From an uncultured Alphaproteobacteria bacterium (lineage in GTDB: Bacteria > Pseudomonadota > Alphaproteobacteria > Puniceispirillales > Marisalimonadaceae): DNA of 64,000 nt. The notes beneath the pieces were generated by a model. It had not been told where the DNA came from, ran no database searches, and saw only the letters and a list, made by a program, of their open reading frames with translations. Position numbers and translations under genes: made by a program. The stretch is taken from positions 1 through 64,000 of the forward strand of contig CAKZQZ010000029.1 in the NCBI GenBank assembly GCA_937142855.1. The letters run 5' to 3'. Shown here one piece after another: positions 1-21,174 of the stretch; position 1 is the stretch's first letter, and every line of letters starts with the position of its first letter.

Positions 1-46
1 ATAATAAAATTTTATTGTATTTTTCATTAGTAATATGTTTTTAAGA

Positions 47-3652: not shown

Positions 3653-3666
3653 TTTTATCTCTTAAG

Positions 3667-3733: not shown

Positions 3734-3753
3734 GTATCAATTATTTATAGATT

Positions 3754-4080: not shown

Positions 4081-4122
4081 ATCGTTATAGTTGATTAATA
4101 AAGGCATTAAATTTTAATGTCT

Positions 4123-4839
4123 TTATTGTAGTACAATTCTTAAAAATTCATCAAACCACATAGAAAACCCTTGTTTCGCTTTATTACTGGTTCTACCCTT
4201 TTTGTATAGACTTTCGTAAGTATTTAAGCGTTCATACAGGGCATATTGTTTGATTTTTGCCTTCATAAACCGAATTTTGGTATTTGATTCTAAATAATCA
4301 ATTTCATCACTCAATTCCTGAATGGTAATTGCGTTTTTACGATAAAAATTAACCAAACCATATAAATTTAATGGTCGAGCTTTTTCTTTTCGTAATTCTT
4401 GAATATCTAATAAGAGTTTGGCATATCGCAACGTAGAATCCAGATTTAAAGCGCCACCTTTAAAAGGCACAAAAACATAATCTACAAAAGATAATAATTT
4501 GGTAATTTCTTGTTGTTTAATATCTTGTTCTAAATCGATTCGACCAGGTGTATCAATAAAAATAAAGTCATAATCTTTATCAAAATCGACAATCTTCTCT
4601 CTAATCTGATGATAAGTTAATGCTTTCACATCGTATGTAAACTCAAAATCTTCATACTCCTCTTCAACGATTTCTCGGTCATATTCTCGAATCGAAATAA
4701 TACTCCGCTGCATGTCATTATCAATTACCAAAACTTTATAAGCAAAGTCAGGAGCAGCTAAAGCGTTTGCCGTCAAAATAGATAAGGTACTTTTACCAAT
4801 TCCACCTTTTTGATTTCCAAATAATATAATCTTTGCCAT
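4123..4839 (-). CDS. parA: ParA-family partition ATPase
   Basis: The 238-residue product has the deviant Walker A motif K-G-G-I-G-K-S-T at residues 11-18 and the Walker B region F-I-F-I-D-T-P-G-R. It therefore belongs to the ParA/MinD family, ATPases that move plasmid or chromosome copies to cell halves. It has no N-terminal helix-turn-helix, so it is the short plasmid-type ParA. Its partner gene follows directly, and the iteron origin with repB lies upstream on the opposite strand. This is the standard layout of a low-copy replicon. The start M-A-K-I-I-L-F was chosen because 20 upstream in-frame residues do not resemble the family. Confidence 0.88.
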   Translation of the reverse strand: MAKIILFGNQKGGIGKSTLSILTANALAAPDFAYKVLVIDNDMQRSIISIREYDREIVEEEYEDFEFTYDVKALTYHQIREKIVDFDKDYDFIFIDTPGRIDLEQDIKQQEITKLLSFVDYVFVPFKGGALNLDSTLRYAKLLLDIQELRKEKARPLNLYGLVNFYRKNAITIQELSDEIDYLESNTKIRFMKAKIKQYALYERLNTYESLYKKGRTSNKAKQGFSMWFDEFLRIVLQ

Positions 4840-4888
4840 GATATTATGATTTCTTTTGAATGTTTTAAAGCAACAATTTAGGCAAAAA

Positions 4889-4938
4889 CTACGTAACACG
4901 GAACACTTAAAACGGTTTACGTAATACGTTATACGTAC
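4889..4938. repeat. TACGTAATACG-type repeat, degenerate copy
   Basis: Pieces of the family (ACTACGTAACACGG and GGTTTACGTAATACGTT) lie just upstream of parA. The arms are imperfect. It may be part of the parA promoter or partition region. Confidence 0.5.
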
Positions 4939-5072
4939 AAAAATAATAGTTTTTAAGTAAAATCAAAGGTTTTGCAGACTTTAATGTGCCAAAAAAAAGT
5001 GATTGAAATTTAGAATTGACAATAAATTGACGGATGTAATTTATTTTAGAATCAATTAAATGCTTTAAATGA

Positions 5073-5100
5073 ACGTAATACGTATTACGTAACACGTAAT
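5073..5100. repeat. TACGTAATACG-type repeat, 18-base perfect palindrome
   Basis: ACGTAATACGTATTACGT at 5073-5090 is self-complementary, and a partial further copy (AACACGTAAT) follows. It sits at the outer edge of the origin region. Confidence 0.6.
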
Positions 5101-5344
5101 TATTAAAACTTAGCGAAATGATTATCAACTGATCATATGGAAAATTGAAGTGCAGGAGAAATAATTCTTTATCTATTCCAAAATAGCTTTTATCTTATCA
5201 AAAATTTGAGCTAATAGGGCTGAATTATCTAAAAGATAGAAAAAAAGGGATATTTTAAATCATATTTTAAATCCGTTTTAAGGAATTTTAAATATTGAGT
5301 GAATATTTGACTACGATTTTTATAAATAATTGCTTAAAACGAAT

Positions 5345-5411
5345 ATTTTGACGTATATGACCTAAAAAACCTTTCGATAAGTTGTTATTAAACCGGTTTT
5401 TACGTCAAAAT
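5345..5411. repeat. Inverted repeat left of the iterons
   Basis: ATTTTGACGTA (5345-5355) is matched by its exact complement TACGTCAAAAT (5401-5411), with further partial pairing inside (AAAAAACC against GGTTTTT). It ends nine bases before the first iteron. Confidence 0.5.
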
Positions 5412-5419
5412 CGTTAAAA

Positions 5420-5840
5420 GATAGAATTCGAGGGTCAGCGGCCTTTTAAAGCACTTCTCTTCGTTTTTCGTTTTTTCGAATTGACGCAGAATCCTTCACA
5501 AGCGATAGAAAAAACCCTCGAATTCTATCCTTTAGAAAAATTTCATCGAAATTTTTCTAAAAAAAATGGAAATTGATTCATCAGTGAAAAGCATTGAAAT
5601 GTTAAAAAGATAGAATTCGAGGGTCTTTTATTTTTCATTTTAAGCAACATAAAAAAACGTGTATTTTTTTAAATATTTTTAAAGTATTTTTAGAGCGGCT
5701 GAACCTATTGATATCACTATGTTGCAACTACGCAAAGAATAGAATTCGAGGGTCAAAAGATAGAATTCGAGGGTCAAAAGATAGAATTCGAGGGTCTTTT
5801 TAGCCCTATTTCCGAACTTAAAAGATAGAATTCGAGGGTT
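5420..5840. repeat. Iteron array, seven copies
   Basis: The motif is GATAGAATTCGAGGGTC. Direct copies lie at 5420-5436, 5609-5625, 5739-5754 (first base differs), 5759-5775, 5780-5796 and 5824-5840 (last base T). One inverted copy lies at 5514-5529. The three copies from 5739 to 5796 repeat every 21 bases, two turns of the DNA helix, so bound initiator molecules would line up on one face. The inverted copy is typical of sites used for initiator pairing or autoregulation. Spacing is irregular outside the tight group and there are no cas genes, so this is not a CRISPR array. Confidence 0.88.
5531..5561. repeat. Perfect hairpin inside the origin
   Basis: Two 14-base arms (TTTAGAAAAATTTC and its complement) flank the 3-base loop ATC. 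Neither strand has a T-run after the stem, so it does not look like a terminator. It lies just after the inverted iteron and may be a melting or strand-initiation element. Confidence 0.55.
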
Positions 5841-5898
5841 AAATAATAGAGTGAAAAAATAGTTCTATCTTTTCACTCTATCTTTTAAAAAAATTCTC

Positions 5899-5906
5899 TA
5901 CCTTTG
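5899..5906 (+). promoter_or_regulatory. Bacteroidetes -7 promoter box for repB
   Basis: TACCTTTG matches the TAnnTTTG -7 element of Bacteroidetes sigma factor promoters. It ends four bases before the repB ATG, so transcription would begin at or within a base or two of the start codon and give a leaderless message. A clear -33 TTTG is not visible; TATCTTTT lies about where it would be. Confidence 0.55.
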
Positions 5907-5910
5907 ACCT

Positions 5911-6825
5911 ATGTCAACAAAAACAAATAAGCCTAAAAAGACTGGTTCTCGCAAACAACAAGTGGCTGTACAATCGAATGCCTTGATCAATGCGAGATAC
6001 GAAATGACTGCATTTCAGAAAAAAATTCTGTTATATATCATTTCTATGATTCAGCCCGATGACGAGGACTTCAAACAATATACGATAAATGTGAAGGATT
6101 TTGTAACCGATACAGATTACAAGTCGAAAATGCTTTACGGCAAACTTAGACAAGAAACTAAAGCTTTAATCGGTAAGGTATATGAAATCGAGGAAGCAGA
6201 TCGTTTATCTCAAATTTCTATCCTTTCGGAAGCTGTTTATATCAAAGGGAAAGGAACGATTCAAGTACGATTTACACCTGCCTTAAAACCGTATTTATTA
6301 CAATTAAAACAACATTTTACGGCAACTCCTCTGAAGTATATTTTGAGTTTTAAATCCGTGCATTCGATGCGAATTTATGAAATGTTGCATCAATTCAAAT
6401 CGACGGGTTTCTTCGTAGAAAAAGTCCAGAAACTCAAATATCGACTCAAAATTGAAGATAAATATCAATCCTACTCTGCCTTCAAAAAATACGTTTTGAA
6501 GCAAGCTCAAAAGGAATTATCACAAACAGATATGGCTTTTTCTTTTAAGGAAATCAAGGAAGGGCGAAAAATCGACCGCTTAGAGTTCACCATCAAACCG
6601 CTACAGGAAATTCCTATCGAAGCCAAACAAGAACAGTTGATTACAAAGTTGGTTATGGACTTACGATTATCGCCACTTCAAGCCAAACGTATTGTCATTA
6701 TGGTTTTGCCAGCCGATATTCATCGCACGATTTATGAAATCAAAGAAGCACATCGAGATGGCAAAATTTTAACAAATATTGCCGCTTATTCTATGGGCGT
6801 TTTTCGTAAGAAATTTCAAGTATAA
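5911..6825 (+). CDS. repB: RepB/Rep_3-family replication initiator
   Basis: The 304-residue product has a basic, disordered N-terminus and then the Rep_3 signature region from about residue 22: N-A-L-I-N-A-R-Y-E-M-T-A-F-Q-K-K-I-L-L. Two winged-helix domains are expected across residues 25-230, and F-K-S-V-H-S-M-R-I-Y-E-M-L is the typical second-domain start. Family members bind iterons and open the origin. The iterons lie directly upstream and the divergent parA locus lies beyond them, so this is a complete replication and partition unit. The promoter box touching the ATG suggests autoregulation by iteron occupancy. Length is normal for Bacteroidetes RepB proteins. Confidence 0.9.
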   Translation: MSTKTNKPKKTGSRKQQVAVQSNALINARYEMTAFQKKILLYIISMIQPDDEDFKQYTINVKDFVTDTDYKSKMLYGKLRQETKALIGKVYEIEEADRLSQISILSEAVYIKGKGTIQVRFTPALKPYLLQLKQHFTATPLKYILSFKSVHSMRIYEMLHQFKSTGFFVEKVQKLKYRLKIEDKYQSYSAFKKYVLKQAQKELSQTDMAFSFKEIKEGRKIDRLEFTIKPLQEIPIEAKQEQLITKLVMDLRLSPLQAKRIVIMVLPADIHRTIYEIKEAHRDGKILTNIAAYSMGVFRKKFQV

Positions 6826-6881
6826 TTGAGATTTTTATTGTTTATCGCTGACAATTAGCTAATAATCAACTCACAATCAAC

Positions 6882-6906
6882 TACGTATTACGTAAACCGT
6901 AATACG
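6882..6906. repeat. TACGTAATACG-type repeat
   Basis: TACGTATTACGTAAACCGTAATACG occupies these positions in the gap after repB. It is a partly symmetrical copy of the family. Confidence 0.5.
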
Positions 6907-7025
6907 ACTAATAAAAATTATTTAACAACTTGAAAATCAAAATTACTGTCATTCTAACAAAATTAAGATGATAAAGATCTAAGAATACGTTGAGTTCTAA
7001 ATTAGAAAATAATAAAAAAATCACA

Positions 7026-7049
7026 TAATACGTATTACGTAAAACGTAT
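7026..7049. repeat. TACGTAATACG-type repeat
   Basis: It contains the 12-base palindrome TAATACGTATTA (7027-7038) followed by CGTAAAACGTAT. It lies 33 bases beyond the 3' end of the B3/B4 gene and could act in its transcription end. Confidence 0.5.
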
Positions 7050-7081
7050 CAAAATTAATATTTTCTGTAACCTTATTTCCG

Positions 7082-7732
7082 CTAAATAATCATTCGTTTT
7101 ATATTGTTTGCATCACCAAAACGCTCCAACAAATCAACCGCCAAATCCATTGCCTTTGTTAATTCCTCCAAACCATTAAAATCTAAAATCACCATCAAAA
7201 AGCGTTTCGTTTCATTCGTTACTGAAGTCCGAGTCGAGTCACTTGTCGGTGTTCCGAAAGCACCTTGAGCATCTCTAAAAGTCGCCAAACCTTCGATGTT
7301 TAAATTGCCTCGTCCGATGCCTTCGTAAGGTTCATTTGCTCCACCGACGCCTAAGGCGATTTCTCCCTCGATTTTATCCGCATCATAACCGCCAATTGAA
7401 AAGCCAGTTGAAATAGATACTAAATTCAATAAATCCACCACATTATTGATTTTATATAAACCTTTGCCCTTTACGACTCTTCTTAGCAAGGCTTCTGCCG
7501 AAGGTCGATAACGTGCCGGATCTTTTCCTAAAGCCTTATAACCTTTACGAGTTGCTGCAATTGTTAGCATTTTAGCGATGCTTGCCGTGTCCATTGTTTC
7601 CAATTCTGCAATCTTCTTATTAATTTCTGCCCATAAATCCTCATTATTACCCGATATTTGCACCGAACAAGAAATCACGCCTAAACGGAAATTTGGGCAT
7701 TTTGAGGTTATCGTTTCTGTTATAGTTATCAT
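7082..7732 (-). CDS. B3/B4 tRNA-binding-domain protein
   Basis: The 216-residue product matches the stand-alone B3/B4 family, named after the core domains of the phenylalanyl-tRNA synthetase beta chain. Visible features are the R-Y-R-P-S-A-E-A-L-L-R-R-V block, N-V-V-D-L-L-N-L-V-S-I-S-T-G-F-S-I-G-G-Y-D and G-T-P-T-S-D-S-T-R-T-S-V-T. In the synthetase this domain handles tRNA binding and editing. The free-standing proteins are thought to have editing-like or unknown roles. Full length is present, with no signal peptide, so it is cytoplasmic. It is a single gene bounded on both sides by palindromic repeats, and its presence next to a replicon core is not explained. Confidence 0.8.
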   Translation of the reverse strand: MITITETITSKCPNFRLGVISCSVQISGNNEDLWAEINKKIAELETMDTASIAKMLTIAATRKGYKALGKDPARYRPSAEALLRRVVKGKGLYKINNVVDLLNLVSISTGFSIGGYDADKIEGEIALGVGGANEPYEGIGRGNLNIEGLATFRDAQGAFGTPTSDSTRTSVTNETKRFLMVILDFNGLEELTKAMDLAVDLLERFGDANNIKRMII

Positions 7733-7757
7733 CGTTTCTGTTTTTTTATTAGTATAA

Positions 7758-7794
7758 CAACGTAATACGGTTTACGTAATACGCATTACGTAAT
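7758..7794. repeat. TACGTAATACG-type repeat
   Basis: CAACGTAATACGG is followed by TTTACGTAATACGCATTACG in the divergent gap between the B3/B4 gene and prmC. Three partial units of the family overlap here. Confidence 0.55.
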
Positions 7795-7860
7795 TTTTTT
7801 ATTAATTATCAGTAGGTTAACAACGATATAGTGTCAACTGTCTGCTATCAACCGTCAAGA

Positions 7861-8703
7861 ATGATTACAAAAACTGCTTTTACAAATCTACAAACTGCGT
7901 TGTGTTCGATTTATGATAATCGAGAAGCACATACGATTGCTCGATATATTTTTGAGGATATTTTTAACATCCTCAATACTCAATCTGAAAAACAACTTTC
8001 GGACACGCAAGTTAGTGAATTGAAGACAATTCAAAAACGATTATTAAATTATGAACCGTGGCAACACATTGTCGGTTTTGCGGATTTTTATGGTTCAAAA
8101 TTCCGTGTGTCGCCCGATGTCTTGATTCCTCGACCTGAAACGGAAGAGTTGGTGCATTTAGTTTTGGAGCATGTCAAGCCGTTGCAAACGATTTTGGATA
8201 TTGGAACTGGAAGCGGTTCTATTCCGATTTCAATTAAAAAGAAATACGAACATTTGGAGGTTTTTGGTTTAGATATAAGCGAAGCCGCCTTGAATATTGC
8301 AAAACAAAATGCCGAACTCAATCAAGTTCAAATCAATTGGCGACAAGCCAATATTTTAAATCAAAATGAATGGAATAGAGTAGGAGAGAATCAGAAATTC
8401 GATATTATCGTCAGTAATCCGCCTTATGTCTTAGAAAGCGATAAAACCGAAATGCACCGAAACGTTTTGGATTTTGATCCAGAACTGGCTCTTTTTGTGG
8501 CGAATGAAACACCTTTATTGTTTTATGATGCGATTTCCAATTTTGCATTGCAATATTTAAAACCGAATGGGCAATTGTATTTTGAAATTCATCAGGATTT
8601 TGGGCAACAAACTACTACACTTCTGGAAAATAAAGGTTTTCGAAATGTGAAAGTTGTAAAAGATTTATATCAAAATGATAGAATAGTTTTTGGAAACATT
8701 TAA
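7861..8703 (+). CDS. prmC: Release factor glutamine N5-methyltransferase
   Basis: The enzyme uses S-adenosylmethionine to methylate the glutamine of the GGQ motif in peptide release factors RF1 and RF2. The start at 7861 gives 280 residues. An N-terminal helical domain carries the L-I-P-R-P-E-T-E-E-L-V motif near residue 88. The cofactor motif D-I-G-T-G-S-G-S is at 113-120 and the catalytic N-P-P-Y at 186-189. A GTG ten codons upstream is possible but adds nothing family-like. The last 41 codons occur again, diverged, at 10035-10157. The stop codon runs directly into a palindromic repeat that probably ends transcription. Confidence 0.93.
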   Translation: MITKTAFTNLQTALCSIYDNREAHTIARYIFEDIFNILNTQSEKQLSDTQVSELKTIQKRLLNYEPWQHIVGFADFYGSKFRVSPDVLIPRPETEELVHLVLEHVKPLQTILDIGTGSGSIPISIKKKYEHLEVFGLDISEAALNIAKQNAELNQVQINWRQANILNQNEWNRVGENQKFDIIVSNPPYVLESDKTEMHRNVLDFDPELALFVANETPLLFYDAISNFALQYLKPNGQLYFEIHQDFGQQTTTLLENKGFRNVKVVKDLYQNDRIVFGNI

Positions 8704-8744
8704 ACGTAAGCCGTATTACGTAATACGTAGTATGGCTTACGTTT
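8702..8744. terminator. Palindromic repeat, likely bidirectional terminator
   Basis: Arms AAACGTAAGCC (8702-8712) and GGCTTACGTTT (8734-8744) flank a smaller TATTACGTAATA palindrome. It begins inside the prmC stop codon and lies 4 bases from the end of the converging lipoprotein gene. It belongs to the TACGTAATACG family. Confidence 0.55.
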
Positions 8745-8748
8745 ATAA

Positions 8749-9153
8749 TTAATTTTGCCTTTCTGTATATAAAATAGTTCCATCAGGAAATGTAAAATCA
8801 CATCGTTGTTTATCACTACTCATCCGATAAGTAATTTTTTGTTCAACATCTTCTACTTTAGTAATAAAGTAATCTTCGGTAATTTTAACTACCTGCCCCA
8901 CTTGTCCACTTCCTGTTCTCTTACTGGTATAACTTAAAGAAAATGTATTTTGATTGAATACCACTTTAGTGCCTATCAATTCCTTTTTGACTAATTCATT
9001 TAATGCTAATGATTCAATTGGATTAATATCCTCCTTTGTTTTTATATCAATGATAAGGTCGTAAGTAATCCATACAGAACTTGAAGGAATTATGGCTATT
9101 CGTGGTGTACATCCAACAGCTATAATAAATAAGCCTAATATTATTAAACGCAT
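8749..9153 (-). CDS. Small lipoprotein, first of two paralogs
   Basis: The 134-residue product begins M-R-L-I-I-L-G-L-F-I-I-A-V-G-C-T-P-R, a clean type II signal peptide with the lipid-bearing Cys15. The mature part is beta-rich and carries D-L-I-I-D-I-K-T and the C-terminal F-P-D-G-T-I-L-Y-T-E-R-Q. No acidic export signal follows the cysteine, so it probably faces the periplasm. I recognise no named domain. A close paralog lies at 10196-10600. Both follow a secreted-protein gene whose last codons read E-N-L-E, so gene pairs and not single genes were duplicated. Confidence 0.7.
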   Translation of the reverse strand: MRLIILGLFIIAVGCTPRIAIIPSSSVWITYDLIIDIKTKEDINPIESLALNELVKKELIGTKVVFNQNTFSLSYTSKRTGSGQVGQVVKITEDYFITKVEDVEQKITYRMSSDKQRCDFTFPDGTILYTERQN

Positions 9154-9219
9154 CTGATTAAAAATTTGAAAGCAGTTAAGAATATCACTATTTTCAACTG
9201 CCTCCTTTAAGAAATACTA

Positions 9220-9588
9220 TTACTCTAAATTTTCACTAAGAATCTTTGTTACAATCTCTGTCAAAGTATTTTCATCAACCTCAACGTTTGGATCATCCTC
9301 TGGAGGTAGAGCTATCATACCAGTAACAACATGGTCTCCACATCCTTCTTGATCTGGGAAATAAGATCCTTGTACATTCAAATTAAAAGAATTAATAGAA
9401 AAACTTCCATTCATAATATTATAAGAAGCGTCAATCCAACCTGTAACATGATAATCACAGCCTCCAAGACTAACAAAAACATCAACTTCAATCCTGATAT
9501 CGGGTTTGAGTTCTAAACTTTCTACCGTAGAATTAGAAAACGCCATTGTAGAAAAAGTCAATGACAAAAATAACGCAAAAAATTTCAT
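9220..9588 (-). CDS. Small secreted protein of unknown function
   Basis: The start at 9588 gives 122 residues with a signal peptide (M-K-F-F-A-L-F-L-S-L-T-F, probable cleavage after A-F-S near residue 18). The mature part has two cysteines placed similarly in G-G-C-D-Y-H-V-T-G and E-G-C-G-D-H-V-V-T-G, which suggests an internal repeat closed by a disulfide. It ends with an acidic helix, L-S-E-N-L-E. A longer open frame extends 33 codons upstream but does not look coding. It lies 66 bases upstream of the 8749-9153 lipoprotein gene on the same strand and probably shares a transcript with it. Confidence 0.6.
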   Translation of the reverse strand: MKFFALFLSLTFSTMAFSNSTVESLELKPDIRIEVDVFVSLGGCDYHVTGWIDASYNIMNGSFSINSFNLNVQGSYFPDQEGCGDHVVTGMIALPPEDDPNVEVDENTLTEIVTKILSENLE

Positions 9589-10034
9589 AACTTTATTTTT
9601 TATAAAATTAACAAATTGGGCTATGATTAGGAATACCACTCCTACGTAGCCCTTTTTAATGAATAAAAAGACTTTATATTGAAGCATTATATCAAGACTC
9701 CTTAACTCTTAATAAATACTTACTCATACCGACAAATAGGTCATTTTTCCAATCTTGTATTAATTGCTCTTTTTCATTATTGATAGTCGAAGGAACTATC
9801 GGGAATTTTCACTAACATTTTGGGAATGTGTGAAATTCAGGTAAATTATTGTGTGGGTGTGATGAAATACACAATAATTCTTAAACTAAGACAAAACAAA
9901 TTTATAGAAATAAATCTACTTTTTCAAATAGCAAAAATGTTAAATTTTCAAAAAAAAAAAAAATAGCGTTGATAATCAACACTTTATGTGAATTCACTTT
10001 TGTATAAAACAGGTAATTTTACTTGATTTTCGAT
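9589..10034. other. Gap of about 450 bases with a terminator
   Basis: It holds the 5' region of the 9588 gene and, at 9950-9980, a hairpin and T-run ending the minus-strand transcript that comes from the right. AT-rich otherwise. Short open frames across it have no family resemblance. Confidence 0.4.
9950..9980 (-). terminator. Rho-independent terminator
   Basis: On the minus strand GTTGAT and ATCAAC pair (9968-9980) and are followed, three bases on, by a run of 14 T (9963 down to 9950). It would end the transcript carrying the 11316-10196 gene pair. Confidence 0.7.
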
Positions 10035-10157
10035 TTTGAAATTCATCAGGATTTTGGGCAACAAACTGTTGCACTTCTGGAAAATAAAGGTTTTCAAAAT
10101 GTGGAAGTTTTGAAAGATTTATTTGGAAATGATAGGATTGTTTCTGGGAGTACTTAA
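10035..10157 (+). pseudogene. Leftover 3' end of a prmC gene
   Basis: Forty codons and a stop read F-E-I-H-Q-D-F-G-Q-Q-T-V-A-L-L-E-N-K-G-F and onward, nearly the same as the end of the intact PrmC (8581-8703). The upstream 240 codons are missing, so it cannot make a working enzyme. It begins exactly at the left edge of the second copy of the duplicated segment and is followed by the same palindrome. It marks how the duplication was made: the right-hand module was copied together with the tail of its neighbour. Confidence 0.85.
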
Positions 10158-10158
10158 A

Positions 10159-10188
10159 CGTAAGCCGTATTACGTAATACGGCTTACG
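10159..10188. repeat. TACGTAATACG-type repeat, 30-base perfect palindrome
   Basis: Each half is CGTAAGCCGTATTAC or its exact complement, with no loop. It follows the prmC leftover by one base and lies 7 bases from the end of the second lipoprotein gene, as its counterpart does in copy 1. It probably works as a terminator stem. Confidence 0.6.
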
Positions 10189-10195
10189 GCTATGA

Positions 10196-10600
10196 TTAAT
10201 GCTGTCTTTCTGTATAAAAAACAGTTCCATCAGGAAATATAAAATCATATTCTTGCTTATCACTACTCATTCGATAACTAATTTTTTGTTCAACATCATC
10301 TTTTCTAATGATAAAATATTCGTCAGTAATTTTAATAATACGACCTGTATCGCCTTTCTCTTTTCCATTATTAGTATAACTGAAAGAAAATGAATTTTGA
10401 TTAAACACCAATTCCGCTCCTATTAATTCTTTTTTAAGTAATTGATTTAATGCCAACGATTCAATTGCATTAGCATCATCATCTGTTTTTATATCAATGA
10501 TAAGGTCGTAAGTGACCCATACAGAACTTGAAGGAATGACAGCTAATCGTGGTGTACATCCAACAGTAATAATAAATAAGCCTAATATTATTAAACGCAT
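10196..10600 (-). CDS. Small lipoprotein, second of two paralogs
   Basis: The 134 residues align end to end with the 8749-9153 product. The signal peptide is almost the same (Cys15), and V-W-V-T-Y-D-L-I-I-D-I-K-T is kept. Differences concentrate in the middle (N-N-G-K-E-K-G-D-T-G in place of S-K-R-T-G-S-G-Q-V-G). Both are intact, so both may be functional. It lies 67 bases after the likely true end of the upstream lipoprotein gene and ahead of the 9950-9980 terminator, so those two genes probably form one operon. No function is assigned. Confidence 0.7.
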   Translation of the reverse strand: MRLIILGLFIITVGCTPRLAVIPSSSVWVTYDLIIDIKTDDDANAIESLALNQLLKKELIGAELVFNQNSFSFSYTNNGKEKGDTGRIIKITDEYFIIRKDDVEQKISYRMSSDKQEYDFIFPDGTVFYTERQH

Positions 10601-10704
10601 CTGATTAAAAATTTAAAAGCAGTTAAAAATATTCCAATTTTCAACTGCCTCTTTTCAAGAAATACTATTACTCTAAATTCTCATCGACAATCCAATTTCT
10701 ATTA

Positions 10705-11316
10705 TCACCTATATTTATCAGATTTTTTTCCATTAAATCCAGCTTTTTCTAATTGTTCAGGTGTCCACCAAGTTTGAATATCACAATTTACCTTAATAAA
10801 ATGAATCGTCACCTTATCATTCAACTTAACTTGCTTCTCCCATTCTTTAACATACATTTTATTAAGTGTTTTAACATAAGTTGACCAATAAGCAAGAATA
10901 TAAAAATCAGCTTTAGGCAATTGATTAAAACTTATTTCTTCTCCGCCTAATGTTCGTAACTTTTGAAATTCTTCTTTTAAACTTAGGCTATCAACTGTTC
11001 GGTAAGTTTCTTCATTTTTTAATTTTTGGATAAAGTTAACCGGCTTAGTTGAACAAGAAGTTTCATTTTCAGCTAAGTATGGAATATAATCACCTTTGTC
11101 ATTAAATATACGCATTGCTGGTAAGCCACCAACACTCTGATGAACTTCTGAAAAATATTCAAAACCAATTGAATACAGATTATTAGTATCAAAATCTCGC
11201 TTTTCCAAATAACTAACGAGTTGTTGCTGTGTTTTTGGCTTAACTCCTAATAAAGTTTTCCCCACAAATTGACATGATGAAAAAGTTACTAAACAACATA
11301 AAATTATTTTTTCCAT
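10705..11316 (-). CDS. Lipoprotein with a probable frameshift near its end
   Basis: The start at 11316 gives M-E-K-I-I-L-C-C-L-V-T-F-S-S-C-Q-F, a type II signal peptide with Cys15. The mature part contains Y-I-L-A-Y-W-S-T-Y and T-I-H-F-I-K-V-N-C-D, loosely like a thioredoxin fold, but with no C-x-x-C motif, so I assign no function. The frame stops at 10705. If one base is removed from the run of seven A (minus strand, 10723-10729), it continues as N-L-I-N-I-G-D-N-R-N-W-I-V-D-E-N-L-E to a stop at 10668, which looks natural. The 5' flank beyond 11316 belongs to another genome, so the upstream TTG at 11328 is not a real start. Confidence 0.65.
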   Translation of the reverse strand: MEKIILCCLVTFSSCQFVGKTLLGVKPKTQQQLVSYLEKRDFDTNNLYSIGFEYFSEVHQSVGGLPAMRIFNDKGDYIPYLAENETSCSTKPVNFIQKLKNEETYRTVDSLSLKEEFQKLRTLGGEEISFNQLPKADFYILAYWSTYVKTLNKMYVKEWEKQVKLNDKVTIHFIKVNCDIQTWWTPEQLEKAGFNGKKSDKYR

Positions 11317-12037
11317 ATTGCATTTCAAAACCAGAATTAGAATATAAATTCCCTCCAGCTGCTTTGAGAATACTATGCCCTGCTGCTGTGTCCCACTCCA
11401 TTGTAGGGGCGGTACGCGGATAAAAATCCATTTTACCTTCTGCTAGATAGCAAAATTTAATACTCGAACCTATATCCCGATCTTTAATAGGCCTTACAAA
11501 AGACATCCAGTTTTCTAATTCCCTTGATCTGTGATTAAAGCTACTTAAGGTTTTAATTTCATTATAATTTATAATTGAACACTGAATTTGTTGTGAGTTT
11601 TTAAAGTTATAATCTTGTTCAATTTTCCAAGCTTTGCCTTCAAAGTTGTACCATATAGTATTGGTAAATGGCTGTGCTATAAGACCAAAAATTGGTAAAT
11701 TATTTTTAATGAGAGCAAAATTAACTGTAAAATTTGGGGTTTTATTTATAAATTCTTTTGTACCATCTATTGGATCTACCAACCAAAATATTTTTTGATT
11801 TTCTTGAAAATTCTGGGATTGTTTTAACTCCTCACTTACAATATTAATTTCTGGAAATAATTTTTTTAATCCATTAACGGCAATTTTATTAACCTCTATG
11901 TCTGCCTTCGTTAATGGAGATTCATCTTCTTTATAGTTTACTTGAACGTTGTCCAAGTCTTTGAAGTGAGACATGGCACATAAGCTACATTCTTTTGCCA
12001 AATCAATAATTTTTAAAATTTTCTCTAAACTTATCAT
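11240..12037 (-). CDS. cysQ: 3'(2'),5'-bisphosphate nucleotidase, 3' end lost at the junction
   Basis: The enzyme removes the 3' phosphate from PAP and PAPS, by-products of sulfate assimilation, and belongs to the inositol monophosphatase fold. Metal-binding motifs are complete: E-E at 69-70, D-P-I-D-G-T at 88-93, and E-W-D-T-A-A-G near residue 214. The expected C-terminus (Y-G-K-x-x-F-x-N-P and a short tail) begins but, after Y-G-K-N-N-F, runs into the start of the lipoprotein gene in another frame. True cysQ sequence therefore ends near 11300 and the last 20 or so residues are foreign. The start overlaps the end of the glycosylase gene by 4 bases (ATGA), showing translational coupling. Confidence 0.85.
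   Translation of the reverse strand: MISLEKILKIIDLAKECSLCAMSHFKDLDNVQVNYKEDESPLTKADIEVNKIAVNGLKKLFPEINIVSEELKQSQNFQENQKIFWLVDPIDGTKEFINKTPNFTVNFALIKNNLPIFGLIAQPFTNTIWYNFEGKAWKIEQDYNFKNSQQIQCSIINYNEIKTLSSFNHRSRELENWMSFVRPIKDRDIGSSIKFCYLAEGKMDFYPRTAPTMEWDTAAGHSILKAAGGNLYSNSGFEMQYGKNNFMLFSNFFIMSICGENFIRS
11299..11318. other. Junction between two genomes
   Basis: Left of this point the genes are Bacteroidetes-like and right of it alphaproteobacterial. On the minus strand the shared stretch ATGGAAAAAATAATTTTA serves both as codons 1-6 of the lipoprotein and as the near-terminal codons of cysQ (Y-G-K-N-N-F). A breakpoint inside such microhomology is what a misjoined assembly produces. Confidence 0.85.
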
Positions 12038-12672
12038 ATCTGTATATTTATTTTTTCTACTTTAACTTTATTGTAAAAGTGCCATAAAAATAAAGCTGCA
12101 GCTGTTCTATAAGGTTCCCATTGGTTTCCTAACTTTTCCATTTCATTTTCATTTGGTCTTAATTGAAATTTCTTTATAATTTTTACAGCTTCTTGTAGTG
12201 CTAAATCAGCAGAAGGCCATGCATTGATGTCTTGAAGTACAAATATTTTATAATTATTAATAGTCCATTTACCTACACCCTTAATTTTAATTAATGAGTT
12301 ATTAATTTCTTCACTTGATAGTTTGTTCAGGGTGTTTAAATTTAACTCTTTTTTATGTATTAATTCAGCTAAATTTTTTAAATAAAAAGACTTTTGTGAT
12401 GATAGCCCATACTTTTTCAAATCATTTACAGATAATGAAAGTAATCTATTTTCATTAAGAATATCATCTATCATTAATTTGTTATAAATAGTGTCAGCAA
12501 CATTAGTAGAAATCTGTTGGCCAATAATTATTTTTGCTAAGCTTTGAAAGCCTTTTTTCATTGTTCTGTTTTTGGGAGGACCAATCTGATCATAAACTTT
12601 TTTAAAGGTATGATCGATTTTAATGATCATTTCAAAAGCTTTAAGCATTTCTGGGTTCCAATTAGATTTCAT
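12034..12672 (-). CDS. DNA-3-methyladenine glycosylase (AlkA-like, HhH-GPD)
   Basis: The 212-residue product is a base-excision repair glycosylase of the HhH-GPD superfamily that removes alkylated bases from DNA. The helix-hairpin-helix is L-I-K-I-K-G-V-G-K-W-T near residue 133. It is followed by W-P-S-A-D-L-A-L-Q-E-A, whose Asp is the usual catalytic acid. There is no C-terminal Cys cluster for an iron-sulfur centre, which argues against endonuclease III or MutY. The N-terminal AlkA domain is absent, so it is the short form common in alphaproteobacteria. It overlaps cysQ by 4 bases and probably forms an operon with it. Confidence 0.85.
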   Translation of the reverse strand: MKSNWNPEMLKAFEMIIKIDHTFKKVYDQIGPPKNRTMKKGFQSLAKIIIGQQISTNVADTIYNKLMIDDILNENRLLSLSVNDLKKYGLSSQKSFYLKNLAELIHKKELNLNTLNKLSSEEINNSLIKIKGVGKWTINNYKIFVLQDINAWPSADLALQEAVKIIKKFQLRPNENEMEKLGNQWEPYRTAAALFLWHFYNKVKVEKINIQI

Positions 12673-12724
12673 TTTTTTTCTAAATTTTATGTTGATAGAT
12701 TAAAATTAATGTTAAGAGGTATTA

Positions 12725-13378
12725 ATGCAATATAAACATAATTCAAAAGAAAAAATATGGGATTTATCATTAAGACTCTTTCATATAACTTTAATACTTC
12801 TAATTACTGGATCGATAGTCACAGCTAAACTAAACTTTTTAGAAATTCATCAGTTTTTTGGAGTTTCCTTAATAGGTTTAATATCTTTTCGAATTTTATG
12901 GGGGTTTATAGGAACTAATTATTCAAGATTTAAAATCTTAAATTTATCTGTTTCAGGTGCCTTAAATCAACTTTCAAGCAAAAAAAATGTCTACAATATT
13001 AAAACACCACTAGGTAGTTATTCTACTCTGGTATTTATGGTGATTTTGATAACTTTGACTATTTCTGGTTTATTCTCTAGCGATGATGTTTTATACGATG
13101 GTCCCCTTGCACACTTGACACCTAATCACACGTTCTATTGGGTTCGGATCCATGATTATTCACACTATATTCTATATTGCTTAATTTCACTACATATCAT
13201 AGCAATTTTGTATTACCAAAAAGTAAAAAAACACAATCTAATAAAAAGAATGTTTGGTTTTTACTACAAGATAGACCAACACATTTCTTCTAAAAACAAT
13301 GAAACACCTCTTAAAGGTGTGTTCATTTTATTAATATGCACTATATTGCCATCTTTATTTCTAATTTTAACTAATTAA
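12725..13378 (+). CDS. Cytochrome b561-family membrane protein
   Basis: The 217-residue product has four main hydrophobic helices and a fifth at the C-terminus. Likely heme ligands are the histidines in R-L-F-H-I-T, E-I-H-Q-F-F-G, H-D-Y-S-H-Y and S-L-H-I-I-A. The pattern fits the di-heme cytochrome b561 or Ni-Fe-hydrogenase cytochrome b family, which passes electrons between quinone and a periplasmic partner. The usual partner, a small cytochrome c, is not adjacent. It starts with ATG only 53 bases from the divergent glycosylase and its stop shares the bases TTAA with the converging GlcG-like gene. Confidence 0.85.
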   Translation: MQYKHNSKEKIWDLSLRLFHITLILLITGSIVTAKLNFLEIHQFFGVSLIGLISFRILWGFIGTNYSRFKILNLSVSGALNQLSSKKNVYNIKTPLGSYSTLVFMVILITLTISGLFSSDDVLYDGPLAHLTPNHTFYWVRIHDYSHYILYCLISLHIIAILYYQKVKKHNLIKRMFGFYYKIDQHISSKNNETPLKGVFILLICTILPSLFLILTN

Positions 13379-13821
13379 CCAATATCAGCTGTAAAACCTG
13401 CTGCTTCAATTCCTGCAACTGCTGCTATTTCATCATTATCTGAGGTATCACCTGATATACCTAGTGAACCTACAATATTTTTATTTTTATCTCTAATTAG
13501 AACTCCACCAGGAACAGGAACTAAGGCTCCATCTGTGAGTGCATTGACAGCATTTATAAAGTAGGCTTGCTGTTCTGCTCTATTAAATAAAGCTCTGGAA
13601 CCCATACCCATTTGAAAAGCGCCATTAGCTTTACCATGGGCTATTTTAAAACGTAAACTACTAACACCATCTTCTCCAGAACAAGCTTTAATTGCTCCAC
13701 GGTGATCTAAGACAACCACCATTATAGGGTTTATTTTTATCTCTCTTGCCTTTTCAATGGCACTATTAATTATTAAATTAGATTTTTCTAGAGTTATTGG
13801 CTCCATATTTAACTCAGACAT
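13375..13821 (-). CDS. GlcG/HbpS-family heme-binding-like protein
   Basis: The 148-residue product matches the GlcG/HbpS family (formerly DUF336). Its typical motifs are present: M-V-V-V-L-D-H-R-G-A-I-K-A, D-G-V-S-S-L-R-F-K-I-A-H-G-K-A and V-P-V-P-G-G-V-L-I-R-D. Members bind heme or other small ligands or act beside glycolate and diol enzymes. Their precise role is often unknown. There is no signal peptide, so it is cytoplasmic. It converges on the cytochrome gene with a shared TTAA stop. That neighbour is a heme protein, which would fit a heme-related job, but this is inference. Confidence 0.8.
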   Translation of the reverse strand: MSELNMEPITLEKSNLIINSAIEKAREIKINPIMVVVLDHRGAIKACSGEDGVSSLRFKIAHGKANGAFQMGMGSRALFNRAEQQAYFINAVNALTDGALVPVPGGVLIRDKNKNIVGSLGISGDTSDNDEIAAVAGIEAAGFTADIG

Positions 13822-13933
13822 TTTAAAACTCCATTTTAAATTTATTAATTCTTATTTCTCTTTTAACTTATATTCTAATTTATGATAGATGTATTTTTAA
13901 ATCTTTTTATTACAACTAGTTAAATAAATTAAT

Positions 13934-14935
13934 ATGAACCCAAAGTTAGATTATTTGAATTTTTTACAATCAAATGAAAAATATATCAATGATAAGAGTA
14001 ATTTTATAGTTGTTGCTTTTTATAAATTCTTTGAACTCCAGAATTTAGAGGAATTCAAGGATATTTTAAGGTTAATTTTTAATGATACATTAGTTAAAGG
14101 CACTATATTATTAGCTAAAGAAGGCATTAATGGAACTATAGCCGGTATGCCAAGTGAAATTAAAAATGTATTAGATGAATTATGGAATTTAGATAATTTA
14201 AATGATTTAGAAGCTAAATATTCTCTTGCTCCTCAAAATCCATTTTTTAGAATGAAAATTAGACTTAAAAAAGAAATAGTAACGCTAGGTATTGATAATA
14301 TTTCTCCTAAAAAAGAAGTGGGTAAATATATAAAACCAGAAAATTGGAATAGTTTTATATCTGATGAATCATTAATACTCATAGATACTAGAAATGATTA
14401 TGAAGTATCTATCGGTTCTTTTGATAAAGCAATAAACCCTAATATAAAAAGCTTTAGAGAATTTCCAAATTGGGTTTCAAAAAACCTTCTTAATAAAGGT
14501 TCTGAAATTAAAAAAAAGAAAATAGGAATGTTTTGTACCGGAGGTATTCGGTGTGAAAAGTCTACGTCATATTTAAAATCTCTTGGTTTCGAAGATGTAT
14601 ATCATTTAGAAGGTGGAATTTTAAAATATCTTGAGAAGATTCCTGAAAACGAGACTAAATGGAATGGTAGCTGCTTTGTTTTTGATTACAGAGTTTCTGT
14701 AAAGCACAGTTTAGAGTTAGGCGATTACGACATGTGTTTTGCTTGTAGAATGCCTATTAATGATGAGGATAAAAAGAATAAATATTATATAAAAGGGCAA
14801 AGTTGCCACCACTGTTTTACACGTTCTAATGTAAAGCAAAAACAAAGGTTCAAGGAGCGTCAAAAACAAATAGAAATTGCAAAGAAAAAAAATCAATCAC
14901 ACATAGGCCAACCCAATAGCAAGGATAAATTTTAA
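13934..14935 (+). CDS. trhO: tRNA uridine 5-hydroxylase (rhodanese family)
   Basis: TrhO (YceA, UPF0176) hydroxylates uridine 34 of certain tRNAs in an oxygen-dependent way, the first step to 5-methoxyuridine or cmo5U. The 333 residues hold an N-terminal acylphosphatase-like domain (A-K-E-G-I-N-G-T-I-A-G), a rhodanese domain with catalytic Cys201 in F-C-T-G-G-I-R-C-E-K-S, and a C-terminal Cys-rich segment (C-F-A-C-R-M-P and S-C-H-H-C-F). A basic helical tail follows. All key parts are intact. Its stop codon shares TTAA with the converging arsC-type gene. Confidence 0.92.
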   Translation: MNPKLDYLNFLQSNEKYINDKSNFIVVAFYKFFELQNLEEFKDILRLIFNDTLVKGTILLAKEGINGTIAGMPSEIKNVLDELWNLDNLNDLEAKYSLAPQNPFFRMKIRLKKEIVTLGIDNISPKKEVGKYIKPENWNSFISDESLILIDTRNDYEVSIGSFDKAINPNIKSFREFPNWVSKNLLNKGSEIKKKKIGMFCTGGIRCEKSTSYLKSLGFEDVYHLEGGILKYLEKIPENETKWNGSCFVFDYRVSVKHSLELGDYDMCFACRMPINDEDKKNKYYIKGQSCHHCFTRSNVKQKQRFKERQKQIEIAKKKNQSHIGQPNSKDKF

Positions 14936-15306
14936 TTTAATAGTTTTAATAACATCTCTGGAGGACGTCCAATAATAGCATCATTCAATTCATCACCTTG
15001 ATATTTTATAGCCAAAGGTCTTTCAATAATGATTGGGTTTTCAACAATAAATTTAATTAGTTCATCAATAGATGATTCATTCACATCTATATTTAAATCC
15101 TTAAATTTTTGTTCGTTTTTTCGGACAATGCTATTTTTATCGAACTTTAAATTCTTTAAAATGTACTCTAAATCCTTTTGTAAGATTCCAACTTCTAAGT
15201 ATTTAACAATTTCAAATTTAACATCATGAGAAGAAAGTAACTCTAAAGCTTTTCTGGATTTAGAGCATCTAGGATTATGATAAAGTTTTATTTTACTATT
15301 ATTTAT
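14932..15306 (-). CDS. ArsC-family reductase with an apparent ATA start
   Basis: A continuous frame of 124 residues reads N-N-S-K-I-K-L-Y-H-N-P-R-C-S-K-S-R-K-A-L and ends G-R-P-P-E-M-L-L-K-L-L-N. This is a complete ArsC/YfgD-type protein with the catalytic cysteine of the N-P-R-C-S-K-S motif. I-I-E-R-P and G-R-P-P-E are the conserved Arg blocks. Family members reduce arsenate with glutathione and glutaredoxin or have an unknown redox role. There is no ATG, GTG or TTG at the 5' end. The only sensible start is ATA at 15306-15304, placed 6 bases after a perfect GGAGG inside the end of the upstream gene. It overlaps the upstream stop codon and shares TTAA with trhO. Confidence 0.82.
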   Translation of the reverse strand: MNNSKIKLYHNPRCSKSRKALELLSSHDVKFEIVKYLEVGILQKDLEYILKNLKFDKNSIVRKNEQKFKDLNIDVNESSIDELIKFIVENPIIIERPLAIKYQGDELNDAIIGRPPEMLLKLLN

Positions 15307-16298
15307 AAAAGGCCTCCATTGCCCATGTCATTAATTTCTTTCTTAGAGATGCCAAGTTCACTAAATAATCTCCATAATATCCAATCAACGCCATTTTCTT
15401 TAGGTGATCGTGCGCACCCTGGCATTCCAACAAGATCTATATTTTTATTATTCGTTTTTATATTTCCTAGTAACATTAAGTTTCCAGGCTCTACAGGCAT
15501 TCCCAAACGCTTAACTTTACCGTGATTTAACTTTAATGATTTAGGAATTATATCATTAATGTCCGTAATAGCTGATGCACCAAAAACCAGAATTATGTCT
15601 GCATTTTTATCAATACTTTCTTTGATCCTTTCAGACAAGATTTTTACAGAATGTTCGCATTTTTTTTCAACAAAATTATTTATACCATATTTTATCAGTC
15701 TATCTTTAGTAACTATAATTGTCTTTTCTAAAATCTTAGTAGATATTGTTTCATTTTGAGTTTGAATTAGGTGAATTACTTTATGTTTAAATGGTATTAC
15801 CTGAAAACAGTTAGCAGATTTTTTAATAACATTATTTAAGGTCATTTTATCAATAGCAAATGGAATTGCTTTTGTAGATATTACGACTTGATTTTTCTTT
15901 ACAAAAGTTAAATTTTTTTTTGATGCTACTGCAATTTTATCAGTAACTGAATTAATCTTTAAGAGTTGTTTGGGGTCAAACTTTATTACTCCATTAACAT
16001 TCGAGATTAAATTACATCTACCTTGCTTTGGGATATCAATAGTTAAATTAGAATTTTTTTTCATAACAATTTCTTTTGATATTTCAAAAACTGCTTTATC
16101 TTCTTGAACATCATCTTTTTCAAGTTTAGCACATATAATTGAATTAATATTATCTTTTAAGAAAAGTTCTATGTGACTTTTCTTTATTACAGTACCTTTA
16201 TTAACTTTTATTTTTTTATTATTTTTATCTTTTACAAACATAGAATTTGTTAAAATTCCATTTAAAGATGATTCAGTTTTTAGCTCACCGAAAAACAT
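15303..16298 (-). CDS. MoeA/MogA-type molybdopterin-binding protein
   Basis: The 331-residue product has a MoaB/MogA-like domain in its second half: D-I-I-L-V-F-G-A-S-A-I-T-D, then R-L-G-M-P-V-E-P-G-N-L-M-L-L-G, then L-V-G-M-P-G-C-A-R-S-P-K. The first half resembles the substrate-handling part of MoeA (V-N-K-G-T-V-I-K-K-S-H). Such proteins handle molybdopterin or molybdenum insertion for enzymes of the xanthine dehydrogenase type. The C-x-R-S-P-K-E-N-G motif marks the alphaproteobacterial MoeA-like subgroup. No other molybdenum gene is in the window. Its last bases carry the ribosome binding site of the ArsC-type gene, so the two are coupled. Confidence 0.75.
   Translation of the reverse strand: MFFGELKTESSLNGILTNSMFVKDKNNKKIKVNKGTVIKKSHIELFLKDNINSIICAKLEKDDVQEDKAVFEISKEIVMKKNSNLTIDIPKQGRCNLISNVNGVIKFDPKQLLKINSVTDKIAVASKKNLTFVKKNQVVISTKAIPFAIDKMTLNNVIKKSANCFQVIPFKHKVIHLIQTQNETISTKILEKTIIVTKDRLIKYGINNFVEKKCEHSVKILSERIKESIDKNADIILVFGASAITDINDIIPKSLKLNHGKVKRLGMPVEPGNLMLLGNIKTNNKNIDLVGMPGCARSPKENGVDWILWRLFSELGISKKEINDMGNGGLL
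15304..15317 (-). promoter_or_regulatory. Ribosome binding site and ATA start of the ArsC-type gene
   Basis: On the minus strand the sequence is GGAGGCCTTTTATA. GGAGG is at 15317-15313, the spacer has six bases, and ATA is at 15306-15304. The strong site and ideal spacing decide the start, although ATA is a very rare initiation codon. Confidence 0.7.
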
Positions 16299-16433
16299 TG
16301 TTAACCTATAAATTCAAATTTAGAATGTTATAACCTATATGAATTTAATAAAAATGTTAATATTTTTAGTTTTCAATATAATAATTCTTGACCAATTACT
16401 GATCTGAGGATATGAAACACTTTGGAAATATAT

Positions 16434-16509
16434 GGGGCTGTAGCTCAATTGGGAGAGCGCCTGCTTTGCAAGCAGGAGGTCGTCGGTTCGATCCCGTCCA
16501 GCTCCACCA
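16434..16509 (+). tRNA. tRNA-Ala (anticodon TGC)
   Basis: A 76-base cloverleaf with acceptor GGGGCTG pairing to CAGCTCC (one G-U), anticodon loop TTTGCAA, TTCGATC T-loop and an encoded CCA at 16507-16509. It stands alone and not in an rRNA operon. Confidence 0.97.
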
Positions 16510-16544
16510 TATTTTAATTAGCACACTTTATTTGAGAGTTAATC

Positions 16545-16730
16545 ATGGCAGTACCAAAAAGTAAAATCACAAGATCCAGAAGGGGAATGAGGCGTTCTCA
16601 TGATGCTTTAAGCTCTGATGCATACGTTGAAAGCAAAGAAACTGGTGAATTGCATAGACCTCATCATATTGATCTTAAAACAGGCATGTATAAAGGCAGG
16701 CAAGTTTTAAAAGTTAAGTCCAAAGTTTAA
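16545..16730 (+). CDS. rpmF: Ribosomal protein L32
   Basis: The 61-residue product begins [19 protein letters not shown], the L32 signature, and continues H-R-P-H-H-I-D. It is a basic protein of the large subunit near the peptidyl-transferase region. The zinc-binding cysteines of some L32 proteins are absent, as in most alphaproteobacteria. Length is normal. In many alphaproteobacteria rpmF is followed by plsX, but here hspQ follows after 39 bases, so the usual linkage is broken. Confidence 0.96.
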
Positions 16731-16769
16731 AATATCTGCATTATTATCGAAGATTTTTGAAGGTATAAA

Positions 16770-17168
16770 ATGTCTAAAGAAAATAATGAAAATAAGAATA
16801 GCTCATTAAAAAATAATGTAAATTCTTCAGATAAAGTTAAAATTCATAAAGAACCATTATTTAATATTGGTGATATTGTTAAACACAGAATTTACCCTTT
16901 CAGAGGTGTTATAATTGATGTTGATCCTGAATTTTCCAATACTGAAGAATGGTATCAATCAATTCCTGCTGAAATCAGGCCTTCTAGGAAACAGCCATAC
17001 TACCATTTAATGGCTGAAAACACAGAAACTTTTTACACTGCTTATGTTTCTCAACAGAATCTTATAAATGATGGTGAAAATGGCCCACTTGAACATCCTG
17101 ACTTAGAGGAAATGTTTAGTGGTATGGATAAAGGTAAATATCATTTAAGAAATGAAGTAAGAAACTAA
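16770..17168 (+). CDS. hspQ: Heat shock protein HspQ
   Basis: HspQ (YccV, hemimethylated-DNA-binding fold) modulates Lon protease and helps degrade unstable proteins. The domain spans about residues 30-125: F-N-I-G-D-I-V-K-H-R-I-Y-P-F-R-G-V, then Y-Y-H-L-M-A-E and T-A-Y-V-S-Q-Q-N-L. The 132 residues exceed the usual length of about 105 because of a polar, Asn/Lys/Ser-rich N-terminal extension of about 28 residues that looks disordered. It lies downstream of rpmF and just before the suf operon. The lon gene is at the far end of the window. Confidence 0.9.
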   Translation: MSKENNENKNSSLKNNVNSSDKVKIHKEPLFNIGDIVKHRIYPFRGVIIDVDPEFSNTEEWYQSIPAEIRPSRKQPYYHLMAENTETFYTAYVSQQNLINDGENGPLEHPDLEEMFSGMDKGKYHLRNEVRN

Positions 17169-17192
17169 TTTTTTTTTTATTTATCCTTTAAT

Positions 17193-17211
17193 TAGTACTA
17201 ATTAAGTACTA
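17193..17211 (+). promoter_or_regulatory. Palindromic operator candidate for the suf operon
   Basis: TAGTACTAATTAAGTACTA is a perfect 19-base palindrome (TAGTACT, AATTA, AGTACTA). It ends 10 bases before the ATG of the Rrf2-family regulator. The ACT-AATT-AGT layout resembles IscR-type sites, so autoregulation in response to iron-sulfur status is the likely role. An AT-rich -10-like TATATAAT overlaps its right edge. Confidence 0.55.
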
Positions 17212-17221
17212 TATATAATTT

Positions 17222-17683
17222 ATGTTAAAATTAAATAAAATGACCGATTACGCAGTTGTGTGCTTGGGTATGTTAGCAAGAAAGCCTGATCGTTTTATGT
17301 CTGCATCTGAGCTGTCAAAAGAAACAGGTTTAAAGCTCTATACTGTCCAAAAAATTTTAAAAGTTATATTAGCAAAGAGTGATTTGTTAAAGGCAGAGCG
17401 TGGTGTTTATGGAGGATATACTCTTAAAAAAAAATCAAACAACATAACTGTTGCAGAAATTATTGAGGCATTGGATGGGCCTATTTCACTAACTTCGTGC
17501 GGAGACAAATCAGATTCGCTTTGTCAATCAAGTGATATTTGTTTTTTAGGAGGTAAATGGAATCAAGTTAATGAAATTATTAGAAAGTCTCTAAATGATA
17601 TATCTTTAGATGACCTTTTAAATTTTGATAATCCTTTTCCAGTCGAATATGAAAAACCAATGTTAAACAAAACAATGAATTAA
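17222..17683 (+). CDS. Rrf2-family iron-sulfur regulator of the suf operon
   Basis: The 153-residue product has an N-terminal winged helix (L-N-K-M-T-D-Y-A-V-V-C-L, then L-S-K-E-T-G-L-K-L-Y-T-V-Q-K-I-L-K) and a cysteine group (T-S-C-G-D, S-L-C-Q and D-I-C-F-L-G-G-K-W) like the three cluster ligands of IscR. Regulators of this subgroup bind a Fe-S cluster and repress the suf genes when clusters are sufficient. It is the first gene of the suf operon, 11 bases before sufB, and a palindrome in front of it is a fitting operator. The spacing of the first two cysteines differs from IscR, so it may be the SufR-like Rrf2 type, not IscR proper. Confidence 0.88.
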   Translation: MLKLNKMTDYAVVCLGMLARKPDRFMSASELSKETGLKLYTVQKILKVILAKSDLLKAERGVYGGYTLKKKSNNITVAEIIEALDGPISLTSCGDKSDSLCQSSDICFLGGKWNQVNEIIRKSLNDISLDDLLNFDNPFPVEYEKPMLNKTMN

Positions 17684-17694
17684 AAGGAATTTAA

Positions 17695-19146
17695 ATGGTC
17701 GCAACTCAAGAAACAATTGATAAGGTTAAAGAAGTTTCCCAATCTTATAAATATGGTTTTGTTACTAACCTAGAGGCTGAAAAAGCTCCCTTAGGTTTAA
17801 ATGAAGATATTGTAAAGTTTATATCAAAAAAGAAAAAAGAACCTAATTGGCTTCTAGAATGGAGGCTTAAAGCCTATAAAAAATGGTTAACAATGAAACA
17901 GCCAAAATGGGCTATGGTAGATTTTCCTGAAATTAATTTTCAAGATATTTATTTTTATTCTGCTCCCAAAACAAAACCTAAATTAAACAGTCTTGATGAA
18001 GTAGACCCAGAACTACTTAAGACATATGAAAAATTAGGTATTCCTATCAAAGAGCAAGAAATGCTTGCTGGAGTTGCTGTGGATTATGTTTTTGATTCAG
18101 TTTCTGTGGCTACCACTTTTAGAGAAAAGTTAGAAAAAGAAGGTATTATATTTTGTCCTATATCTGAGGCTGTCCATAACTACCCAGAGCTTGTTAAAAA
18201 ATATATTGGCTCTGTTATACCTGTTGGTGATAATTATTATGCAGCTCTTAATTCTGCCGTTTTTACTGACGGTTCTTTTGTATATATTCCTAAAGGAGTC
18301 CGCTGTCCTATGGAACTGTCTACCTATTTTAGGATTAATGAACAAAATTCTGGGCAATTTGAAAGAACATTAATTATAGCTGAAGATGATTCTTATGTTT
18401 CTTATTTGGAAGGCTGTACCGCTCCACAAAGGGATGAAAATCAATTACATGCTGCGGTTGTTGAATTAATAGCTATGGATAATGCAGAAATAAAATATTC
18501 AACTGTTCAAAATTGGTATCCTGGTGACAAGGATGGTAAGGGTGGTATCTATAATTTTGTGACTAAAAGGGGTAATTGTCTTGGTAAAAGGTCAAAAATT
18601 TCTTGGACTCAAGTAGAGACTGGATCAGCTATTACATGGAAGTATCCCTCATGCGTTTTAAGAGGTGATGAATCTGTTGGTGAATTTTACTCAGTTGCTG
18701 TGGCCAATAATGCGCAACAAGCTGATACTGGAACCAAAATGATACATATAGGCAAAAACACTAAATCGACTATAATATCCAAAGGAATATCAGCAGGTAA
18801 AGCACAGAATACATATAGGGGGCAGGTTCAAATTCAAAAAAGTGCTTCAGGGTCTCGAAACTTTACACAATGTGATTCTTTATTAATTGGTGATAAGTGT
18901 GGTGCTCATACGGTGCCATACATAAATCAATTTACTCCATCTGCAAGAGTTGAACATGAAGCAACTACATCTAAAATTTCTGAGGACCAACTTTTTTACT
19001 GCCTTCAAAGAGGTTTAGATACGGAACAAGCAACTTCATTAATTGTAAATGGATTCTGCAAAGAGGTGATGAAAGAATTACCAATGGAATTTGCAGTAGA
19101 GGCTCAAAAACTTATTGGTATAAGTTTAGAAGGCTCTGTGGGTTAA
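17695..19146 (+). CDS. sufB: SufB, Fe-S cluster scaffold subunit
   Basis: SufB forms the SufBC2D complex on which Fe-S clusters are built. The 483 residues cover the full family length. The beta-helix core includes [15 protein letters not shown] and E-G-C-T-A-P, the [18 protein letters not shown] block and [10 protein letters not shown], whose cysteine corresponds to the one thought to accept sulfur. It ends with the usual E-G-S-V-G. It follows the regulator closely and is followed by sufC after 26 bases. Confidence 0.97.
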
Positions 19147-19172
19147 CTAAGATAAATAATTGGAAATAAATA

Positions 19173-21171: not shown

Positions 21172-21174
21172 AAA

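Follow-up and report, generated by a model that had tools for sequence, protein, structure and literature searches.

Cross-lineage misassembly is known as a relatively rare source of chimeric MAG contigs, and contamination estimates from marker genes are less sensitive to non-redundant contamination (PMC8201837). Contig C29, studied here, resembles such contigs in that two lineages meet at a short shared word and that the estimated contamination of the genome is as low as 1.83%. It differs from them in that both broken ends of one gene could be traced, on two contigs, into what is seemingly the same foreign source. The foreign segment of C29 is also similar to the Bacteroidota plasmids of Aureispira, Spirosoma and Hymenobacter that combine a Rep_3 initiator with ParA, its ParA being nearest to those of Aureispira plasmids. 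Unlike these plasmids, the segment, of which about 11 kb are known, additionally includes hemA and prmC.

The window (the whole stretch of DNA analysed, 64,000 bases) comprises bases 1–64000 of C29 (111,009 bp). The contig belongs to an alphaproteobacterial draft genome of 2.32 Mb in 122 contigs that is rated as 100% complete. The following segments and features around the join were distinguished.

1–11298, either strand: terminal segment of C29 of foreign, Bacteroidota (Saprospiraceae-like) origin, from tetranucleotides, Markov log-odds and gene affiliations
10705–11316, minus strand: lipoprotein ORF MEKIILCCLVTFSSCQF..., with its ATG (11316–11314) inside the shared stretch, from translation
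11299–11316, minus strand: join, 18 nt, ATGGAAAAAATAATTTTA, serving both the cysQ (YGKNNF) and the lipoprotein-start (MEKIIL) frames
11299–12037, minus strand: alphaproteobacterial cysQ-sua5 fusion gene, 5' part only (truncated), from the continuous ORF of relatives, domains and TIGR01331
11317–64000, either strand: segment of the alphaproteobacterial chromosome (host of the bin), from gene order kept in relatives, ALAS, GcrA and composition

The minus-strand ORF at 11240–12037 encodes a CysQ/inositol-monophosphatase protein (PF00459, 4.7e-46; TIGR01331, 220.7 bits, slightly below the cut-off of 228.8) as far as the residues ...EMQYGKNNF, after which it continues as MLFSNFFIMSICGENFIRS and stops. 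This tail corresponds to the beginning of the lipoprotein, MEKIILCCLVTFSSCQFVGKTLL..., read in a different frame; the point at which cysQ stops is precisely that at which the lipoprotein ORF on the left, which has no Pfam match, starts. The translations bear out the original prediction that the cysQ frame is normal up to YGKNNF and then reads the lipoprotein signal in another frame. The minus-strand stretch of about 18 bases that was said to be shared at 11299–11316 was found at exactly that position; the length of this word, 18 nt or slightly more, is an estimate from relatives, as is that of the second overlap described below.

A cysQ homologue was found in 26 of the 36 same-genus genomes searched (66–74% identity), and in these 26 genomes its frame forms one open ORF of 593–604 aa, stop to stop. 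Translation in full of the ORFs of four relatives revealed CysQ continuous with Sua5, the domain order being Inositol_P, Sua5_yciO_yrdC and Sua5_C. Sua5/TsaC is the threonylcarbamoyl-AMP synthase needed for t6A. The gene order cytochrome b561, alkA-like glycosylase, cysQ-sua5 and FAD-linked oxidase is kept among the relatives, with alkA and the FAD-linked oxidase flanking all 26 loci and cytochrome b561 present at 24 of them. The junction of C29 was not found in any of the 26 same-genus genomes, which include the intact gene instead. Since the ORF of the relatives is a fusion gene of 600 aa, a cysQ with merely a short foreign tail was dropped as an interpretation. The predicted run of cysQ into another frame thus holds for the tail, but what is actually split in two is a 600-aa cysQ-sua5 gene, and its codons beyond F (about residue 247) are missing from C29.

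The sole Sua5 match in this genome is located on another contig (C53:1862–2791), with the expected FAD-linked oxidase after it. An in-frame fusion joins the 5' end of this Sua5 to a membrane protein of foreign origin (MSILSKSAYYAKAG...SETTELKKENLVAFPTETVYG), and the order on the contig is a partial cysS truncated at the contig end, the membrane protein gene and sua5. In Saprospiraceae genomes, homologues of the membrane protein are encoded directly downstream of cysS (L067–L070 and L076); they match to about residue 178 and then diverge past the join point. Many relatives have GAATTAAAAAAAGAAAATTT[AG] at the join point of sua5, and the shared word on C53, GAATTAAAAAAAGAAAATTTA, is about 20–21 nt (C53:1865–1885, estimated from relatives). 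The CysS of C53 is at best 62–63% identical to other sequences, from Saprospiraceae or unnamed Bacteroidetes, and a second, full-length cysS of the genome is present on C86. Hence there are two joins in one gene, and about 39–41 codons (~120 bp) between them are absent from the assembly. The region L057 (C53):1–1885 represents a second chimeric contig end of the genome, consisting of a Saprospiraceae-like partial cysS and a truncated membrane protein gene.

Such a pair of joins might also be produced by a real insertion of at least 13 kb of Saprospiraceae-like DNA, a plasmid or a chromosome piece, into cysQ-sua5 with replacement of ~120 bp. However, this event would leave CysQ truncated and deprive the only Sua5/TsaC recognisable in the genome of its start. 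Moreover, neither an integrase nor a target duplication was seen at either join, and illegitimate joining would not usually involve as much as 18–21 nt of matching sequence at both ends.

The tetranucleotide distance of C29:1–11300 from the genome norm was 3.00, whereas none of 79 segments of the genome exceeded 2.16, and positions 11321–22320 had a typical value (0.74). The comparison of the two sides therefore showed a switch of profile near 11.3 kb, in agreement with the predicted join, and the composition was homogeneous over 11–30 kb. A third-order Markov model was trained on C29:1–11300 alone and applied to 1,113 one-kilobase windows from 119 contigs, covering up to 20 kb from the start of each contig; about 20 contigs, all below ~3 kb, were read as N and left unscored. 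The windows C53:0–1 kb (44.6) and 1–2 kb (32.1) ranked first and second of the 1,113, the next score being 10.7 and the mean −27.2 (s.d. 11.2). The foreign flanks of C29 and C53 thus match in composition, which is also what the two ends of one insert would show. On C29 itself, the log-odds were positive to 9 kb, ambiguous at 9–11 kb (−10.3 and 2.9) and clearly negative from 11 kb; owing to the ambiguous part, composition by itself locates the switch to within about 2 kb.

Three other contigs of the genome (C11, C35 and C61 of G000) were deviant in tetranucleotides (2.16, 2.14 and 1.65, the median being 0.89). Their assignment to the same contamination was not adopted, as the Markov model revealed no clear resemblance to the foreign segment; they are possibly genomic islands or other contamination.

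The following genes were annotated in the foreign segment.

2267–3652, plus strand: hemA, glutamyl-tRNA reductase of the C5 pathway (TIGR01035, 249.7 bits, above the cut-off)
3754–4107, minus strand: small ORF beside parA in a ParB-like position, no family match
4123–4899, minus strand: ParA-type partition ATPase (Pfam AAA_31)
5911–6825, plus strand: Rep_3-type plasmid replication initiator (Rep3_N, 9.8e-36; Rep3_C, 9.1e-16)
7082–7732, minus strand: B3/4-domain protein (PF03483)
7831–8703, plus strand: prmC, foreign copy (TIGR03534)

The foreign PrmC shares 44–48% identity with its best matches from Saprospiraceae and no more than 33% with alphaproteobacterial PrmC, including that encoded by the genome's own alphaproteobacterial prmC on C1. 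Matches to ParA among 72,556 plasmid records (PLSDB) were confined to Aureispira and Hymenobacter plasmids, the best being from Aureispira anguillae (38.6%); Aureispira is a member of the Saprospiraceae. The best plasmid matches of the B3/4-domain protein are from Bacteroidales (47–50%). The Rep_3 initiator shares 31–35% identity with those of Spirosoma, Runella and Dyadobacter plasmids, and Firmicutes plasmids score similarly; being about equally near to both, it leaves the phylum undecided. Both the rep gene and the junction word were absent from the viral contigs searched.

The hemA gene is the only copy in the genome, and its true start is probably at about 2400. Its product is divergent, being at best 31% identical to HemA of Fulvivirga and 23–30% to those of other Bacteroidota tested, and it supports a Bacteroidota affiliation only weakly. 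When genome contigs were searched with the left hemA, nothing closely related turned up, so the taxonomy was based on CysS, PrmC and ParA. Classification by best matches assigned the left PrmC and ParA and the CysS of C53 to Saprospiraceae/Bacteroidota. The left genes had been described as Bacteroidetes-like with a C5-pathway hemA; the matches of PrmC and ParA agree with this, and hemA was confirmed at 2267–3652.

Neither a C5-pathway hemA nor a Rep_3 initiator was found in any of 60 relatives, which further argues against a real insertion into cysQ-sua5. This explanation is considered extremely improbable, and so is its variant in which only some members of the population would carry a Saprospiraceae-like replicon inserted in cysQ-sua5, a gene essential for tRNA modification that would thereby be broken.

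The genes hemA, parA, prmC and that for the Rep_3 initiator lie within 6.5 kb (2267–8703), and no integrase was found among the scanned left ORFs. The foreign segment could represent either a Bacteroidota plasmid or chromid carrying core genes, or a chromosomal region into which a plasmid has integrated. It also includes a tandem duplication (window positions 8579–9244 and 10033–10692, 82–87% identical, with a spacing of about 1450 bp), which takes in the 3' tail of prmC, a small lipoprotein gene and, between genes, the palindrome-like GTAAGCCGTATTACGTAATACGG.

As judged by the sequence data, contig C29 is almost certainly a computational chimera of Saprospiraceae-like and alphaproteobacterial DNA formed by short-overlap misassembly. 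An assembly chimera inside cysQ was indeed the core of the original prediction, and it is backed by the intact gene in 26 relatives and by the remaining half, located on C53 with a second foreign join, as well as by the duplicated cysS and prmC, the composition switch and the lack of hemA and rep in the 60 relatives. Both foreign pieces come from what looks like the same source, considering the Saprospiraceae matches of PrmC and CysS, the Aureispira matches of ParA and the Markov scores. In the proposed mechanism, the alphaproteobacterial cysQ-sua5 would have broken over ~120 bp in the metagenome assembly, e.g. where coverage was low or strains differed. From both loose ends, the assembly would then have run on into the DNA of a co-occurring Saprospiraceae-like bacterium via short AT-rich words common to the two organisms (18 nt or slightly more on C29 and about 21 nt on C53). 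So short an overlap would fit a de Bruijn assembler whose word size is about 21 bases. As both contigs are alphaproteobacterial over most of their length, the binner would have left them with the alphaproteobacterium. By a rough, composition-only estimate, chance sharing of AT-rich words of 18–21 nt between two such genomes is expected.

Short shared words at the joins fit as well a physical chimera formed before sequencing, by template switching in multiple-displacement amplification or PCR of a library with both organisms, and the same foreign source was reached by both joins. Against this, two joins ~120 bp apart that lead into different loci, one plasmid-like and the other at cysS, fit one broken spot of a graph more naturally, and completeness of 100% is unusual for a single amplified cell. 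Template switching is therefore regarded as very unlikely. The closeness of the two joins in cysQ-sua5, the AT-rich words and the loci of seemingly one source point rather to misassembly at a broken path in a short-word assembly graph.

The right half of the window is alphaproteobacterial chromosome, as follows from the presence of ferrochelatase, the genus-wide gene order and two further genes.

37284–38513: ALAS (TIGR01821, 580.5 bits)
49353–49751: GcrA

Both genes confirm the predicted alphaproteobacterial nature of the right part. Given the chimera, the accompanying warning against shared biology of the two sides is upheld, and no claim should tie the halves of C29 biologically. Any story in which this alphaproteobacterium is credited with hemA, the plasmid genes or surface lipoproteins of the Bacteroidota type would rest on a misjoin, and false leads such as two haem-precursor routes per cell or an inter-phylum plasmid are thereby removed. 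Trimming is warranted for C29 at 11,299–11,316 and for C53 at about 1,865–1,885 (the first ~1.86 kb). The case is ordinary as biology and useful for quality control, and provides a clean example of a probable chimera despite the low contamination estimate.

No paper on a CysQ-Sua5 fusion was found within the literature searched. In this genus, cysQ and sua5/tsaC are fused in an ORF of ~600 aa (relatives L006–L031). The best cysQ frames in other families of the order are about 250–345 aa, and elsewhere in the class cysQ and sua5 are often separate and sometimes adjacent, e.g. as neighbours in G193, G139 and G165.
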